From contig JABAZA010000056.1 in assembly GCA_018608725.1 (NCBI GenBank), positions 8,200-72,199 on the forward strand: 64,000 nucleotides of DNA, written 5' to 3'. The translations under genes and the position numbers were made by a program. Every line of letters begins with the position of its first letter. Position 1 is the first letter of the stretch. This DNA is from Flavobacteriaceae bacterium. Its GTDB lineage: Bacteria > Bacteroidota > Bacteroidia > Flavobacteriales > Flavobacteriaceae. Positions 21,601 to 28,595 of this stretch are shown piece by piece. Below the pieces are notes generated by a model. It was not told the DNA's origin, made no database searches, and saw only the letters and a list, made by a program, of their open reading frames with translations.

Positions 21601-22030
21601 ACAATCGGTGCAATTGGCAGTACACGAACAAAAAGATCCTCTATTGATTTATAAATTTGAGTCGTTTGAACTGTTTAAGTCCATGATTGACCAAGTAAAT
21701 AAAAACGTGATTTCTTTCTTATTTAAAGGCGAGATTCCACAAGAAACTGCCAATGTCATTCAAGAGGCAAAAGCACGCCGCCGCGAAAAAACACAAACCT
21801 CAAAAGAAAACATCCAAAACCTAGACGAGCGTTCTGCAGAAGCTAGGGCAGCTGGGAACACCCAACGACAACCACAAGTGGTGGAAACGATAGTTAGAGA
21901 CCAACCAAAAATTGGACGTAACGACCGTGTGACTATTAAGCATGTGATGAGTGGCGAAAAAAAGACTACAAAATTCAAGCAAGCGGAACCGCTCATTGCC
22001 AAAGGTGAATGGGTGCTGATTAATGAATAA
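18677..22030 (+). CDS. secA: Preprotein translocase ATPase SecA
   Basis: A 1117-residue motor that drives proteins through SecYEG. It shows Walker A 'MQTGEGKTLVATLP' (~192), 'VDEIDSVLIDDARTPLIISG', 'GTNNEFGFDYLRDNM', 'IATNMAGRGTDIKL' and 'LRGRAGRQGDPGSSQFY'. Two insertions are seen relative to E. coli, near residues 75-100 and 330-440, as in other Bacteroidota. The C-terminal Cys-rich zinc motif that binds SecB is absent; the protein ends 'KGEWVLINE'. That ending is normal in the phylum. Confidence 0.98.
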   Translation: MSLLNSVLKVFVGDKSKQDVKAIMPIVDKIKTFEASTSALSNDALRSKTQEFKSRISEACEALENSISELYTEADTTEDIDRKEDIYQEIDGLKDDVYAKTQEVLDAILPEAFSVIKETARRFVDNPQIEVTASPYDRELSGSKDYVTLNGEKAIWANSWDAAGKPITWDMVHYDVQLIGGVAMHQGKIAEMQTGEGKTLVATLPVYLNAITGKGVHLVTVNDYLAKRDSAWMAPIFQFHGLSIDCIDYHKPNSQERKNAYNADITYGTNNEFGFDYLRDNMAHTPDDLVQRPPHYAIVDEIDSVLIDDARTPLIISGPIPQGDRHEFMELKPKVQDIVGVQRKYLTGVLAEAKKLIAAGDTKEGGFQLLRVFRGIPKNKALIKFLSEEGIKQLLQKTENFYMQDNNREMPKVDEALYYVIDEKNNQIELSDKGVDYLSGKDNPDFFVMPEIGMEISKIENQNLTPEKEAELKEELFREFGIKSERIHTLNQLLKAYALFEKDIQYVVMDNKVMIVDEQTGRIMDGRRYSDGLHQAIEAKENVKIEAATQTFATVTLQNYFRMYRKLSGMTGTAVTEAGEFWEIYKLDVIEIPTNRPIARDDREDLVYKTKREKYNAVIEEVTNLSKAGRPVLIGTTNVEISELLGKMLSIRKIPHNVLNAKLHKKEADIVAEAGQPGQVTIATNMAGRGTDIKLSEEVKAAGGLAIVGTERHDSRRVDRQLRGRAGRQGDPGSSQFYVSLEDNLMRLFGSERIAKMMDRMGLEEGEVIQHSMISKSIERAQKKVEENQFGVRKRLLEYDDVMNSQREVVYKRRYNALFGERLRVDLANMIYDTSEIIVEDNKANNDYKNFEFELIRYFSMSSPVTADEFATMTAQEVSGTVYKTAFQHYISKMERNAELAFPVIQNVYETQRDKFKRIVVPFTDGVKSLQVVTDLEKAYQTNGKQLVTDFEKNISLAIIDDAWKTHLRKMDELKQSVQLAVHEQKDPLLIYKFESFELFKSMIDQVNKNVISFLFKGEIPQETANVIQEAKARRREKTQTSKENIQNLDERSAEARAAGNTQRQPQVVETIVRDQPKIGRNDRVTIKHVMSGEKKTTKFKQAEPLIAKGEWVLINE

Positions 22031-22059: not shown

Positions 22060-22096
22060 AAAATCACGTGTAGCTTTTGGATATACGTGATTTTTT
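22060..22096 (+). terminator. Terminator after secA
   Basis: The arms AAAATCACGT and ACGTGATTTT flank a 15-base loop and run into six T. It is 30 bp past the secA stop. Confidence 0.7.
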
Positions 22097-22431: not shown

Positions 22432-22472
22432 TATGCATGCATAACTTTTTTACTTTTTACTATGCGTGCATA
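22432..22472. promoter_or_regulatory. Twin palindromic operator sites before marR
   Basis: TATGCATGCATA (22432-22443, perfect palindrome) and TATGCGTGCATA (22461-22472, one change) are spaced 29 bp centre to centre. Each sits in a longer direct repeat beginning ACTATGC and continuing ATAAC. The second covers the place where the -33 element of the marR promoter should be. MarR proteins bind such palindromes as dimers, so autorepression of the whole fatty-acid operon is the simplest reading. Confidence 0.65.
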
Positions 22473-22483
22473 ACATATTTACT

Positions 22484-22491
22484 TATCTTTG
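22484..22491 (+). promoter_or_regulatory. -7 promoter element of the marR-fatty acid oxidation operon
   Basis: TATCTTTG is an exact TAnnTTTG match, 22 bp before the marR ATG and 12 bp after the second palindrome. The absent TTG at -33 fits a promoter whose upstream element is taken over by the operator. Confidence 0.6.
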
Positions 22492-22512
22492 GGTTAAGAT
22501 ATTAGAGAACTC

Positions 22513-22944
22513 ATGAAAGATAAAACAATAGACTATGTTTTGAGAACCACTTGGTTGGCAGTTCAAAAAATGTATAATGAAGAAGCTTCCGAATATGGAA
22601 TAACAATGGCAACAGGATTCACACTCTTAAGTGTTGACCCACAAAATGGAACTCCTTCAACCTCGTTAGGTCCAAAAATGGGAATGGAAGCAACCAGTCT
22701 GTCAAGAATTTTAAAAACATTAGAAGACCTGAATTTAATAGAACGCCTACCAAACCCAAATGATGGTCGTGGTGTGCTTATACACCTCACAAAATCAGGG
22801 ATAAAAAATAGAGAAGAAGTAAAACAAAATGTTTTAAAATTTAACAATACTGTAAAATCAGAGGTTTCAGAAGAAAAACTAAACCACTTTTTTGAAGTTT
22901 CTGATTCTATCATGAACCTCATATCAAATAAAAAAATATTCTAA
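22513..22944 (+). CDS. MarR family transcriptional regulator
   Basis: A 143-residue dimeric winged-helix regulator. The recognition region and wing are clear: 'MGMEATSLSRILKTLEDLNLIERLPNPNDGRGVLIHLT' spans residues ~57-95, with the wing Asp-Gly-Arg typical of MarR. It is first in the operon, 19 bp before the dehydrogenase/hydratase gene, which makes it the likely sensor of acyl-CoA or a related ligand controlling beta-oxidation. The ligand is inference. Confidence 0.92.
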   Translation: MKDKTIDYVLRTTWLAVQKMYNEEASEYGITMATGFTLLSVDPQNGTPSTSLGPKMGMEATSLSRILKTLEDLNLIERLPNPNDGRGVLIHLTKSGIKNREEVKQNVLKFNNTVKSEVSEEKLNHFFEVSDSIMNLISNKKIF

Positions 22945-22963
22945 CAACACTATATACACTTAG

Positions 22964-25372
22964 ATGAAAACAAGACGAATTAATAAGATTGCCATTATAG
23001 GATCTGGAATTATGGGAAGCGGAATAGCCTGCCATTTTGCAAATATTGGTGTCGAAGTATTGCTTTTAGATATTGTTCCAAAAAACCTTAACGACAAAGA
23101 AAAAGCAAAAGGCTTAACCATAAACGACAAAGCCGTTAGAAATCGATTGGTAAACGACGCACTTATGGCCTCATTAAAATCGAAACCCTCCCCTATTTAC
23201 AATCAAAAATTTGCAAGCCGAATTACAACTGGAAATTTAGAAGATGACATCGCAAAAGTAGCCAATGTCGATTGGATTATGGAAGTAGTCGTGGAGCGCT
23301 TGGACATCAAAAAAATGGTGTTTGAAAACTTAGAAAAATACCGAACCCCAGGGACTCTAATCACCTCCAACACTTCAGGAATTCCCATAAAATTTATGAG
23401 CGAAGGCCGTAGTGAAGAATTTCAAAAACACTTTTGTGGGACACACTTTTTCAATCCCGCGCGTTATCTAAAATTATTTGAAATTATTCCAGGTCCAAAA
23501 ACAGATCCCTCAGTTTTAGAATTCTTAAATGGCTATGGCGAACAATTTCTTGGAAAAACATCAGTCATCGCCAAAGACACCCCTGCATTTATTGGAAATA
23601 GAGTTGGTATTTTTAGCATTCAAAGTCTATTTCACGCTGTTAAAGACTTAGGACTTACAATTGAAGAAGTTGATAAATTATCTGGACCCGTCATTGGTCG
23701 TCCAAAATCGGCAACCTTTAGAACTGTAGATGTTGTGGGATTAGACACCTTAGTACATGTGGCTAATGGCATTCGAGAAAATTGCCCTAACGATGAACGT
23801 TTAGAGCTGTTTGAACTACCCGATTTCATCACAACGATGATGGAAAACAACTGGCTTGGAAGCAAAACAAAACAAGGGTTTTATAAAAAATCTGTTACTG
23901 CAGACGGCACAAAAGAAATTCTAAGCTTAGACTTAAATACTTTAGAATACCGATCTGCAAAACGGGCAAAATTTGCCACTTTAGAATTAACCAAAACAAT
24001 TGACAAAGTTGTCGATCGATTTAAAATTTTAGTCAGTGGAAAAGATAAAGCTGGCGAATTTTACCGCAAAAGTTTTACGGCACTGTTTGCCTATGTCTCC
24101 AACCGAATTCCAGAAATTACAGACGACCTCTATAAAATTGATGATGCCATGAAAGCCGGTTTTGGATGGGAACATGGACCATTTCAAATATGGGATGCTA
24201 TAGGCGTAGAAAAGGGAATCGAACTCATGAAAGCTGAAGGTTTTGAACCCGCTGCATGGGTAACAGAAATGTTGGCAGCTGGAAACACTTCATTTTACAC
24301 TGTAAAAGAAGGCGCATCTTATGCCTATGAGATTCCAACAAAAACACAAACAAAAATTCCAGGTCAAGACAGTTTCATCATCCTAGATAACATTAGAAAA
24401 ACAAACGAAGTCTTTAAAAATTCTGGAGTCGTTATCGAAGATATTGGAGATGGCATTCTTAATTTAGAATTTCAATCTAAAATGAATACGATCGGTGGTG
24501 ATGTCTTAGCAGGCCTCAATAAAGCAATTGACTTAGCCGAAAAAGATTTCTCAGGCTTGGTCGTTGGAAACCAAGGCGCTAATTTCTCAGTGGGTGCCAA
24601 TATTGGAATGATCTTTATGATGGCTGTAGAACAGGAATATGACGAGCTTAATATGGCAATCAAATACTTTCAAGACACAATGATGCGCATGCGTTATTCT
24701 TCGATTCCAACAGTCGCCGCACCACACGGAATGGCATTAGGGGGTGGTTGCGAACTATCGCTTCATGCAGACAAGGTGGTCGCAGCAGCAGAAACCTATA
24801 TGGGACTTGTAGAATTTGGTGTAGGGGTCATCCCTGGTGGAGGTGGCTCAAAAGAAATGGCTTTAAGAGCTCAAGATATGTTTCAAAAAGGCGATGTTCA
24901 ATTAAATGTATTACAAGAACATTTCTTAACCATTGGTATGGCAAAAGTATCAACATCTGCCTATGAAGCATTTGATTTAAACCTCTTACAAAAAGGAAAG
25001 GATGTCGTTGTAGTTAACAAAGACCGACAAATTGCAGTTGCAAAACAACATGTCAAATTAATGAGCGATTCTGGCTATACACAACCGATAAGAAGAACCG
25101 ATATAAAAGTACTTGGAAAACAAGCCTTAGGAATGTTTTTAGTGGGTACGGATTCCATGCAGGACAGCAACTACATTTCAGAACATGACATGAAAATCGC
25201 TAATAAACTTGCCTATGTGATGGCGGGAGGTGACTTATCGGAGCCCACCTTAGTATCCGAACAGTATTTATTGGATTTGGAACGCGAAGCCTTTTTAAGT
25301 TTATGTACCGAACGCAAAACTTTAGAACGCATACAACATATGTTAACAAAAGGGAAACCACTACGTAATTAG
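22964..25372 (+). CDS. 3-hydroxyacyl-CoA dehydrogenase / enoyl-CoA hydratase fusion
   Basis: An 802-residue bifunctional beta-oxidation enzyme. Residues ~7-440 are the NAD-dependent hydroxyacyl-CoA dehydrogenase ('IAIIGSGIMGSGIACHFANI', 'ITSNTSGIPI', 'HFFNPARYLKLFEIIPG') with its tandem C-terminal helical domains. Residues ~470-690 are a crotonase fold ('GALNKAIDLAEK'-like start, 'GMALGGGCELSLHAD', 'VGVIPGGGGSKEM'). The order is the reverse of E. coli FadB, where the hydratase comes first; this order is known in several bacterial lineages. It works with the thiolase 14 bp downstream. Confidence 0.95.
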   Translation: MKTRRINKIAIIGSGIMGSGIACHFANIGVEVLLLDIVPKNLNDKEKAKGLTINDKAVRNRLVNDALMASLKSKPSPIYNQKFASRITTGNLEDDIAKVANVDWIMEVVVERLDIKKMVFENLEKYRTPGTLITSNTSGIPIKFMSEGRSEEFQKHFCGTHFFNPARYLKLFEIIPGPKTDPSVLEFLNGYGEQFLGKTSVIAKDTPAFIGNRVGIFSIQSLFHAVKDLGLTIEEVDKLSGPVIGRPKSATFRTVDVVGLDTLVHVANGIRENCPNDERLELFELPDFITTMMENNWLGSKTKQGFYKKSVTADGTKEILSLDLNTLEYRSAKRAKFATLELTKTIDKVVDRFKILVSGKDKAGEFYRKSFTALFAYVSNRIPEITDDLYKIDDAMKAGFGWEHGPFQIWDAIGVEKGIELMKAEGFEPAAWVTEMLAAGNTSFYTVKEGASYAYEIPTKTQTKIPGQDSFIILDNIRKTNEVFKNSGVVIEDIGDGILNLEFQSKMNTIGGDVLAGLNKAIDLAEKDFSGLVVGNQGANFSVGANIGMIFMMAVEQEYDELNMAIKYFQDTMMRMRYSSIPTVAAPHGMALGGGCELSLHADKVVAAAETYMGLVEFGVGVIPGGGGSKEMALRAQDMFQKGDVQLNVLQEHFLTIGMAKVSTSAYEAFDLNLLQKGKDVVVVNKDRQIAVAKQHVKLMSDSGYTQPIRRTDIKVLGKQALGMFLVGTDSMQDSNYISEHDMKIANKLAYVMAGGDLSEPTLVSEQYLLDLEREAFLSLCTERKTLERIQHMLTKGKPLRN

Positions 25373-25386
25373 AAATATTAAAGAAA

Positions 25387-26577
25387 ATGAAACAAGCATA
25401 TATAGTAAAAGCATTCCGAACCGCCGTTGGTAAAGCACCAAAAGGCGTATTTCGTTTTAAAAGAACCGATGAATTAGCCGCAGAAACCATCAAACACATG
25501 ATGAAAGAATTGCCGGATCTGGACCCAAAACGCATCGATGACGTTATTGTTGGAAATGCAATGCCCGAAGGATCTCAAGGTTTAAATATGGCACGATTGA
25601 TTTCATTAATGGGATTAGATATTGTAGATGTTCCTGGAGTTACTGTCAACCGTTTTTGTTCGTCTGGAATCGAAACCATTGGAATGGCAACAGCAAAAAT
25701 ACAAGCAGGAATGGCCGACTGTATTATTGCAGGTGGTGCTGAAAGCATGAGCAGTGTTCCAATGACAGGATATAAACCAGAACTAAATTACAACCTCATA
25801 AAAGCAGGTCATGAAGACTATTATTGGGGCATGGGAAATACCGCTGAAGCAGTCGCCAATCAGTTTAAAATTTCTCGTGAAGATCAAGATGAATTCGCTT
25901 ATAACTCCCATATGAAAGCCTTACGAGCCCAAGCAGAAAATCGTTTTCAAGACCAAATTGTTCCTATTGAAGTGACACAGAATTATATTGATGCTGACGG
26001 AAAAAAAGCAACCAAATCCTATACCGTCACCAAAGACGAAGGGCCAAGAGCAGGAACAAGCAAAGAAGCCTTAGCAAAACTAAGAGCCGTCTTTGCGGCT
26101 GATGGAAGTGTAACTGCAGGAAATTCATCACAAATGAGTGATGGTGCTGCCTTTGTTATGGTAATGAGCGAAGACATGGTCAAAGAATTAAACCTAGAAC
26201 CTATCGCACGATTGGTCAACTATGCAGCAGCAGGAGTCGAGCCAAGAATCATGGGGATTGGTCCTGTTAAAGCAATTCCAAAAGCCTTAAAACAAGCAGG
26301 ATTAAAACAAGATGATTTGTCTTTAATTGAACTCAATGAAGCCTTTGCTTCACAATCTTTAGCAGTCATCCGTGAATTAGACCTCAATCCTGATATTATC
26401 AACCCAAATGGTGGAGCAATATCCTTAGGTCACCCCCTTGGATGTACAGGTGCAAAACTATCGGTTCAACTCTTTGATGAAATGCGTAAGCAAAACATGA
26501 ATGGAAAATATGGCGCCGTCACAATGTGTGTCGGAACAGGGCAAGGTGCCTGTGGGATCTTTGAGTTCCTTAAGTAG
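25387..26577 (+). CDS. Acetyl-CoA C-acyltransferase (thiolase)
   Basis: A 396-residue thiolase completing the beta-oxidation cycle by splitting 3-ketoacyl-CoA with CoA. The nucleophile is Cys91 in 'VNRFCSSGIETI'. The other signature blocks are 'AGGAESMSSVPM', 'ELNEAFASQ', 'NPNGGAISLGHPLGCTGAK' (catalytic His) and 'CVGTGQGACGIFE' (second Cys). Length is standard. It is the third gene of the marR operon. Confidence 0.96.
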   Translation: MKQAYIVKAFRTAVGKAPKGVFRFKRTDELAAETIKHMMKELPDLDPKRIDDVIVGNAMPEGSQGLNMARLISLMGLDIVDVPGVTVNRFCSSGIETIGMATAKIQAGMADCIIAGGAESMSSVPMTGYKPELNYNLIKAGHEDYYWGMGNTAEAVANQFKISREDQDEFAYNSHMKALRAQAENRFQDQIVPIEVTQNYIDADGKKATKSYTVTKDEGPRAGTSKEALAKLRAVFAADGSVTAGNSSQMSDGAAFVMVMSEDMVKELNLEPIARLVNYAAAGVEPRIMGIGPVKAIPKALKQAGLKQDDLSLIELNEAFASQSLAVIRELDLNPDIINPNGGAISLGHPLGCTGAKLSVQLFDEMRKQNMNGKYGAVTMCVGTGQGACGIFEFLK

Positions 26578-26786: not shown

Positions 26787-28595
26787 ATGGAAACAAACGA
26801 CAAACAACTAATCAGAGGAGGGCAATTTTTAGTTAAAGAAACAAAATGTGAAAACGTATTTACGCCCGAAGATTTTACAGAAGAGCAACAAATGATGAAA
26901 GATTCTGTAATGGAATTCAACGACCGTGAGATTATTCCTCACAAAGCGCGCTTTGAAGCCAAAGATTTTGCATTGACAGAAGAAGTGATGCGAAAAGCTG
27001 GAGACATGGGATTCTTAAGTGTTGCTGTTCCTGAAGCTTATGGCGGAATGGGAATGGGCTTTGTTTCGACATGTTTAACCTGTGATTATATTTCAAGTGG
27101 AACGGGTTCTTTTAGTACTGCTTTTGGTGCACACACAGGAATAGGAACAATGCCAATCACCTTATATGGCACCGAAGAACAGAAACTAAAATATGTACCA
27201 AAATTAGCTTCTGGCGAATGGTTTGGAGCTTACTGCCTTACCGAACCCGGTGCAGGGTCGGATGCCAATTCTGGAAAAACAACTGCTGAATTATCTGCCG
27301 ACGGAAAAACATACAAAATCAATGGGCAAAAAATGTGGATCTCAAATGCAGGATTTTGTAGTGTGATGATCGTGTTTGCACGGATAGAAAAAGACAAAAA
27401 TATTACAGGTTTTATTGTTGAATATGACAGTGAAAACCCAAACGGTATCGTTTTGGGAGAAGAAGAACATAAATTAGGAATTAGAGCGTCCTCAACACGT
27501 CAAGTATTTTTTAATGACACTGTGGTCCCTGTTGAGAATATGTTAGCAGGGCGTGGTGAAGGATTTAAAATTGCAATGAACTCACTAAACGTAGGACGTA
27601 TCAAATTGGCGGCTGCTTGTATAGATTCGCAGAGACGTATTTTAAATATCGTAGTAAATTATGCTAAAGAGCGTAAACAATTTAAAACCTCTATTGCAGA
27701 CTTTGGAGCCATCAAAGTAAAATTAGCAGAGATGGCAACCAATGCCTATGCTTGTGAATCCGCTACTTATAGAGCTGCAAAAGATATTGAAGACCGCATT
27801 GCAATTCGAGAAGCGAATGGAAACAGCCACCAAGAGGCAGAACTAAAAGGAGTTGAAGAATATGCTATTGAATGTTCAATTTTAAAAGTAGCGGTTTCTG
27901 AAGACGTCCAAAACTGTGCAGATGAAGGAATTCAAATCTTTGGTGGAATGGGATTCTCTGAAGAAACCCCTATGGAATCCGCTTGGAGAGATGCTCGAAT
28001 TACAAGAATTTACGAAGGAACCAACGAAATTAACCGAATGCTTTCTGTGGGTATGCTTGTTAAAAAAGCAATGAAAGGGCATGTTGATTTATTAGGTCCA
28101 GCTTCAAAAGTTCAAGAAGAACTCATGGGGATTCCTTCTTTTGAAACTCCTGATTATTCCGAGTTATTTTCTGAAGAAAAAGAAATGATTCAAAAACTTA
28201 AAAAGACTTTCTTAATGGTTGCTGGTGGGGCGGTTCAAAAATACGGACCTCAACTCGAAGAGCATCAACAATTATTAATTGCCGCTGCAGATATCTTAAT
28301 TGAAATATACATGGCAGAATCTACAATTTTAAGAACTGAAAAAAATGTAAAGCGTACGAGCGAAAAAGAGCAATCTGCACAAATAGCAATGGCTAAATTG
28401 TATTTGTACCACGCAGTAGATATTGTTGAAGAAAAAGGAAAAGAGAGTATCATTTCGTTTGCCGAAGGCGATGAACAACGGATGCTATTGATGGGATTAA
28501 AACGTTTTACGAAATATGCAAACTACCCAGATATCGTAGATTTACGTATCGAAATTGCTGAAAAAGTGAAAGAAGAAAATGGCTACTGTTTTTAG
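26787..28595 (+). CDS. Acyl-CoA dehydrogenase
   Basis: A 602-residue FAD enzyme catalysing the first step of beta-oxidation. It shows 'GAYCLTEPGAGSDANS' and 'KMWISNAGFCSVMIVFARI' (FAD and substrate loops), 'GFSEETPMESAWRDARITRIYEGTNEINRM' at residues ~390-418 with the catalytic Glu of the 'YEGTNEI' motif. A further ~180 residues form a C-terminal helical extension as in very-long-chain enzymes, which suggests long-chain substrates (inference). It is the last gene of the marR operon, 45 bp after the relic. Confidence 0.94.
   Translation: METNDKQLIRGGQFLVKETKCENVFTPEDFTEEQQMMKDSVMEFNDREIIPHKARFEAKDFALTEEVMRKAGDMGFLSVAVPEAYGGMGMGFVSTCLTCDYISSGTGSFSTAFGAHTGIGTMPITLYGTEEQKLKYVPKLASGEWFGAYCLTEPGAGSDANSGKTTAELSADGKTYKINGQKMWISNAGFCSVMIVFARIEKDKNITGFIVEYDSENPNGIVLGEEEHKLGIRASSTRQVFFNDTVVPVENMLAGRGEGFKIAMNSLNVGRIKLAAACIDSQRRILNIVVNYAKERKQFKTSIADFGAIKVKLAEMATNAYACESATYRAAKDIEDRIAIREANGNSHQEAELKGVEEYAIECSILKVAVSEDVQNCADEGIQIFGGMGFSEETPMESAWRDARITRIYEGTNEINRMLSVGMLVKKAMKGHVDLLGPASKVQEELMGIPSFETPDYSELFSEEKEMIQKLKKTFLMVAGGAVQKYGPQLEEHQQLLIAAADILIEIYMAESTILRTEKNVKRTSEKEQSAQIAMAKLYLYHAVDIVEEKGKESIISFAEGDEQRMLLMGLKRFTKYANYPDIVDLRIEIAEKVKEENGYCF

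Follow-up and report, generated by a model that had tools for sequence, protein, structure and literature searches.

Fatty-acid use in E. coli is governed by FadR, a regulator of the GntR family. One protein controls the genes for both beta-oxidation and fatty-acid uptake; it sits on palindromic operators laid over their promoters and is released by acyl-CoA. The FadR operator differs from TATGC-NN-GCATA, the palindrome treated here.

MarR proteins that repress catabolic genes are also a known kind. HcaR, CouR, HpaR and PcaV each exert local control over a catabolic operon, and in the case of CouR and HcaR the signals are CoA thioesters. In streptococci, the MarR-family fatty-acid regulator FabT governs synthesis, with acyl-ACP as its co-repressor. 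Fatty-acid metabolism in Sulfolobus acidocaldarius is regulated by a TetR-type FadR (PMC6449355).

In the stretch of DNA analysed here (the window, 64,000 nucleotides from a Flavobacteriaceae genome), two palindromes stand before a marR gene that is followed by fad genes. Comparison of sequences makes it quite probable that this MarR protein is an autoregulated repressor of lipid catabolism and that the palindromes are its operators.

The probable marR-fad operon and its promoter

The MarR-family regulator, a protein of 143 amino acids, is encoded at 22513-22944 on the plus strand, with its ATG at 22513. It is followed on the same strand by genes for a FadB-like 3-hydroxyacyl-CoA dehydrogenase / enoyl-CoA hydratase of 802 residues (22964-25372), a FadA-like acyl-CoA thiolase of 396 residues (25387-26577) and a FadE-like acyl-CoA dehydrogenase of 602 residues (26787-28595; NCBIfam NF058590 above its cut-off). 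Since the gaps between marR and fadB and between fadB and fadA measure only 19 and 14 bp, these three genes likely form one operon. The gap between fadA and fadE is 209 bp.

The 143-residue protein carries the MarR domain PF01047 (9.8e-11, above the cut-off). In Pfam it matches solely MarR-type and related winged-helix families, and the GntR-type domain of FadR was not found there. None of the NCBIfam MarR equivalogs (HpaR, Saro_0803, BilQ and others) is reached at its cut-off, the best score being 43.1 bits against 200. An AlphaFold2 monomer model has a mean pLDDT of 88.5, and Foldseek matches it to MepR, MarR, HcaR, MexR and SlyA. The good structural matches include DNA-bound MepR and SlyA; against the chains of the MepR-DNA complex 4lln the TM-score is 0.80-0.85. 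The model points to an ordinary MarR fold.

Upstream of the operator region, an open reading frame that we take to be secA ends at 22030. Between the two lies an inverted repeat, AAAATCACGT...ACGTGATTTT, that resembles a terminator and has a T run behind it (22060-22094, plus strand). It was recognized by eye and is absent from the output of an inverted-repeat scan whose loop limit was 8. Because of this repeat and the end of the upstream frame, marR probably has its own promoter.

The distal palindrome, TATGCATGCATA (22432-22443, no strand assigned), is a perfect one and a candidate auxiliary operator of lineage-specific occurrence. The proximal palindrome, TATGCGTGCATA (22461-22472, likewise without strand), is symmetric save for its central two bases and is the candidate main operator, in the -33 slot. 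The two start 29 bp apart and share the context ACTATGC..GCATAAC. Eleven base pairs beyond the proximal palindrome stands the -7 element TATCTTTG (22484-22491, plus strand), which agrees with the consensus in PMC6847099 and PMC9723704. Transcription is predicted to start at 22496-22497 on the plus strand, 4-5 nt past this box according to the spacing in PMC6847099. The first-pass annotation had described this pair with its shared context, the -7 element ahead of marR, and the order of marR and the three fad-like genes, and in all of this it was correct.

The palindromes are not due to chance. TATGCRYGCATA averages 0.0075 copies per dinucleotide shuffle of the window (400 shuffles), and not one shuffle holds two. 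The source genome (1.69 Mb, 82.5% complete) has four sites in three promoters, namely the marR pair, one between etfB and pdhB, and one at a second acyl-CoA dehydrogenase gene. All four copies fall in promoter regions, and each adjoins a lipid or electron-transfer gene. The identical set of sites is present in a sibling genome (G123). At two mismatches the window shows no enrichment of the motif, with 8 observed matches against 9.1 expected; therefore the information sits in the exact word. Across 149 genomes of the family, YTATGCRYGCATAR gives 537 matches against 17 for the reversed pattern, and it is present in 139 of these genomes.

Conservation and co-occurrence with MarR

A search at E<=1e-15 found one MarR match each in 141 of the 149 family genomes. 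A palindromic sequence at the gene's own promoter, a trait of the MarR family, is the rule among them: in 137 of 141 a palindrome match of at least 10/12 lies within 150 bp upstream of marR. The match is 12/12 in 75 of these promoters, 11/12 in 49 and 10/12 in 13; control coding stretches of equal size reach 9/12 at most. The form TATGC-NN-GCATA, with AT, GT, AC or GC at its centre, occurs within 160 bp of marR in 133 of 141. Four promoters stay under 10/12 (L018, L086, L102 and L132). The site of L018 lies about 155 bp upstream, outside the 150-bp limit, the upstream region of L086 contains N, and the miss at L132 looks like an artefact of picking an ATG inside the palindrome.

The second site is rarer. 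All 12 of the nearest named loci (11 records, one of them with two loci) keep a pair of sites spaced by exactly 29 bp. A set of 80 named loci, the best 80 matches to the window protein from a longer list and so biased towards close relatives, has 32 loci with two sites, 46 with one and 2 with none in the 140 bp. Of the 141 marR promoters of the evenly drawn family sample, 11 have a second site at a distance of 28-30 bp; in one more, two matches in overlapping register lie 14 bp from each other. At 11/141, the twin site was rejected as an essential feature. On this comparison the twin is lineage-specific, and a single predicted operator in the -33 slot is the usual arrangement. The order fadB, fadA, fadE is kept in 72 of the 80 named loci. 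The remaining eight, all with under 5 kb of sequence past marR, yielded just fadB or fadB-fadA.

Presence of the site follows presence of the MarR gene. Within the family, 137 of the 141 genomes with MarR have sites, versus 2 of the 8 without (Fisher 4e-7). In a sample of the phylum (n=148) the counts are 22/28 versus 3/120 (Fisher 8e-18), and outside the family of the source genome 8/13 versus 3/120 (Fisher 1e-7). All three tests ignore kinship, and the genomes are related, so that the counts are not independent of one another.

Three genomes are instructive in detail. G022 (88% complete) retains fadB, fadA and the beginning of fadE; the MarR query that matched 141 genomes finds nothing in it, and it has no site. 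G015 has a site and no MarR match, which is explicable since its contig ends inside fadB. G138 (99% complete) has three sites, one of them at pdhB; MarR and fadB were both undetected there.

The phylum sample added 26 MarR loci. In 25 of them a match of at least 10/12 lies within 250 bp upstream, and in 25 fadB stands alongside; L353 lacks both fadB and the site. Thirteen of these loci lie outside the family, with proteins 36-47% identical. Of these 13 class-level loci, 12 show a match of at least 10/12 in the 250 bp upstream, and fadB is a neighbour in 12. Three loci outside the family, L355-L357, use TATGCAAGCATA.

In flavobacterial promoters the -7 box, TAnnTTTG, occupies -12 to -5 and transcription begins 4-5 nt beyond it; a TTTG at -33 is described as weak or hard to see (PMC9723704, PMC6847099, PMC2483708). 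At 126 of the 138 family marR promoters with a site, a perfect TANNTTTG box is found within 45 bp past the proximal site, and in 119 of these 126 a distance of 11 or 12 bp separates it from the palindrome. Across the 126, the interval from 28 to 19 bp ahead of the box contains just 7 TTG starts. The operator would span about -36 to -24, with its TATG in place of the TTTG.

These comparisons bear on several proposals of the first-pass annotation. It had looked to loss of the palindromes in relatives that keep the operon as one observation that would speak against it, and instead the palindrome is kept at marR in 137 of 141 family genomes. The flavobacterial promoter type with -33 and -7 elements at the operators is likewise borne out. 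Its self-controlled switch, with a pair of palindromes expected at marR and at the lipid genes of relatives, held in part. Conservation and co-occurrence uphold operator-like palindromes at marR, and the palindrome also stands before other lipid-use genes; the twin is not general, one site being the rule.

The predicted regulon and the role of the site

Two further sites are found in the source genome (G000). At C38:11747-11760 (L287) a palindrome lies between the divergent genes etfB, assigned by its ETF domain, and pdhB, which is pyruvate-dehydrogenase-E1-beta-like with transketolase-type domains. This site joins the electron transfer of acyl-CoA oxidation and the supply of acetyl-CoA. At C99:3658-3673 (L003/L048) an exact ACTATGCATGCATAGT lies between the second acyl-CoA dehydrogenase gene and a divergent gene, presumably anmK. 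Sites at etfB/pdhB and at other targets of the same operator are additional to what had been annotated before. An exact ACTATGCATGCATAGT is also found in a relative (G081, L044:1560-3014), 43 bp before a reading frame resembling another FadB-type gene.

Neighbours were surveyed at 52 sites: 50 non-marR sites of 18 relatives among the matches listed, and the etfB/pdhB sites of the source genome and its sibling. A Pfam scan covered one protein per type (two for KAS III), and the others were typed by eye from their first residues. The neighbour is etfB at 16 sites, mostly with pdhB divergent, an NMO-family enzyme at 11 and a TonB-dependent receptor at 10. KAS III-type enzymes follow with 3, GDSL-type hydrolases with 2 (a match under the Pfam cut-off) and M3-type peptidases with 2. 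FadL, an acyl thioesterase and an unknown protein without Pfam match occur once each, and 5 sites have no interpretable target. Four more non-marR sites in the 18 relatives precede etfB (three) and a lipoprotein-like reading frame (one, L039).

Two of the recurrent neighbours deserve a description of their own. The TonB-dependent receptor has a CarboxypepD_reg-like domain, was scanned at L176 and was recognized by likeness at L179, L180, L183, L184, L191, L306, L316, L322 and L329. It is possibly a lipid importer. The NMO-family (nitronate monooxygenase) enzyme has about 315 residues, was scanned at L188 and was recognized by likeness at L181, L295, L300, L303, L308, L309, L313, L317, L320 and L327.

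Taken over the source genome and its relatives, sites stand at several genes for fatty-acid degradation or uptake, as expected of a FadR-like role. In the source genome itself (82.5% complete), no uptake gene carries a site. Sites were found in 138 of the 148 genera sampled.

The distance to the -7 box is regular at etfB also. When the box is taken as the first TAHHTTYG starting more than 12 bp after the site, it lies 19-24 bp past the site in 84 of 93 etfB promoters, and in 80 at 21-23 bp. The etfB site is about one helical turn farther from its -7 box than the marR site. At pdhB, 98 regions were surveyed, some of them fetched because they bear a site, and 11 have none. Distances from the site to the pdhB -7 box form clusters at 43-48 and 51-57 bp, with isolated values at 36-37 and 63-64, a spacing of roughly one helical turn; in about 20 of the 87 distinct regions with a site the distance exceeds 120 bp. 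Among 70 loci fetched by protein match, 60 have a site within 450 bp upstream of pdhB, against 0 of 70 for the reversed control. Because the site is often far from the pdhB box, etfB is taken as the target at etfB/pdhB, and pdhB may not be a target. The idea of pdhB as an obligate activated target is weakened by these distant sites, whereas the etfB spacing held. At the three class-level loci L355-L357, from two genera, inspection by eye places the site directly after a -7-like box, an arrangement that fits best with repression.

Constant spacing raises the question of whether MarR binds the palindrome as an activator or dual regulator, with the distances reflecting contact with RNA polymerase. 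The etfB sites are centred near -40 and the pdhB sites near -62, spacing varies by no more than a few bp at marR and etfB, and the pdhB clusters are offset by about a helical turn; those clusters may, however, reflect kinship, and the many distant pdhB sites do not suit such contact. Neither does the proximal marR site, which covers the -33 slot, and the sites beside a -7-like box at L355-L357 suit repression better. This alternative is unlikely. The same low standing belongs to a wider scheme, taken as a whole, in which one MarR would be a master regulator of lipid use in the Flavobacteriaceae and beyond: it would block the -33 slot of the fad operon and activate etfB by contacting RNA polymerase from about -40, with two fixed geometries one helical turn apart, some genes being repressed and others activated.

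The palindrome might instead belong to another regulator encoded elsewhere, the adjacent MarR being a coincidence. Binding of MarR to the palindrome is a prediction, and the sites of G138 occur with no detected MarR. Site and MarR nevertheless track each other in the family and phylum samples and are jointly missing in G022, and the contig end accounts for the missing MarR of G015, which makes a foreign regulator improbable. It is hardly credible at all that the palindromes lack a regulatory role, being a random pair, a restriction-like word or a hairpin in RNA. The lack of enrichment at two mismatches would agree with such a view, but exact copies are far more frequent than in shuffles and reversed controls, all four copies of the source genome lie in promoter regions, and the motif lies upstream of the -7 box and so is not expected in the transcript. 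Conservation already contradicts this explanation.

Proposed mechanism and comparison with known systems

From the sequence, its conservation and co-occurrence, the promoter geometry and the gene content we infer how a repressor switch would work, through binding, dimer formation, repression and release by a ligand. TATGC-NN-GCATA would be the operator for the product of marR, the gene that opens the operon. Bound as a dimer to the proximal site, this protein would cover the -33 slot of a promoter of the primary sigma factor, shutting off marR itself along with fadB, fadA and possibly fadE. In the source lineage, the second site 29 bp upstream probably strengthens this hold. The same predicted operator stands before etfB, the electron carrier for acyl-CoA dehydrogenases, and before the second acyl-CoA dehydrogenase. 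In relatives it is also found ahead of the TonB-dependent receptor and the NMO-family enzyme and, more rarely, FadL, the GDSL-type hydrolase, KAS III-type enzymes and the thioesterase.

Repression would most likely be lifted by acyl-CoA or another fatty-acid intermediate; acyl-CoA is a plausible ligand in view of the gene content. In the presence of fish mucus and plasma, F. psychrophilum raises its beta-oxidation genes (PMC9723704). The main text of that paper makes no mention of MarR; the response fits a lipid-responsive switch without naming one.

Some findings sit less easily with the repressor reading. Five of the 50 non-marR loci of relatives have no interpretable target, two have an M3-type peptidase and one has the unknown protein. 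The lipid role of the TonB-dependent receptor (10 sites) and the NMO-family enzyme (11 sites) is putative, the site of L039 precedes a lipoprotein-like frame, and G138 has sites with neither MarR nor fadB detected. The constant distance to the -7 box is also compatible with contact to RNA polymerase, i.e. activation.

Among the matches listed, the open-access literature holds no description of the flavobacterial MarR or of its operator in Bacteroidota. The sole match for TATGCATGCATA in the open-access literature concerns a nematode. The flavobacterial protein would be a further MarR catabolic repressor, with a broad predicted regulon and its operator placed in the -33 slot. The motif offers a directly testable regulon across the 138 of 148 sampled genera and a candidate natural fatty-acid-responsive promoter for Bacteroidota genetics.

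Compared with the TetR-type FadR of S. acidocaldarius (PMC6449355), the regulator belongs to another family and another domain of life. FabT, set beside it by description only, is likewise a MarR protein in lipid metabolism; here, degradation genes are marked instead of those for synthesis. With HcaR, CouR, HpaR and PcaV the flavobacterial MarR shares the winged-helix fold and weak sequence similarity. It differs from them in standing at a fatty-acid oxidation operon and in having sites spread to several other genes.

The likeness to E. coli FadR is one of role. In both systems one regulator is linked to several lipid genes by palindromic operators over promoters, release by acyl-CoA being only expected here. 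Unlike FadR, the flavobacterial regulator is a MarR-type protein, has its own gene at the head of the fad operon and would work at a promoter of the Bacteroidota type. An unrelated protein family apparently fills the role of FadR, with an operator built into the unusual -33/-7 promoter. Judged from sequence, the MarR switch is probably a functional analogue of FadR, its flavobacterial counterpart.
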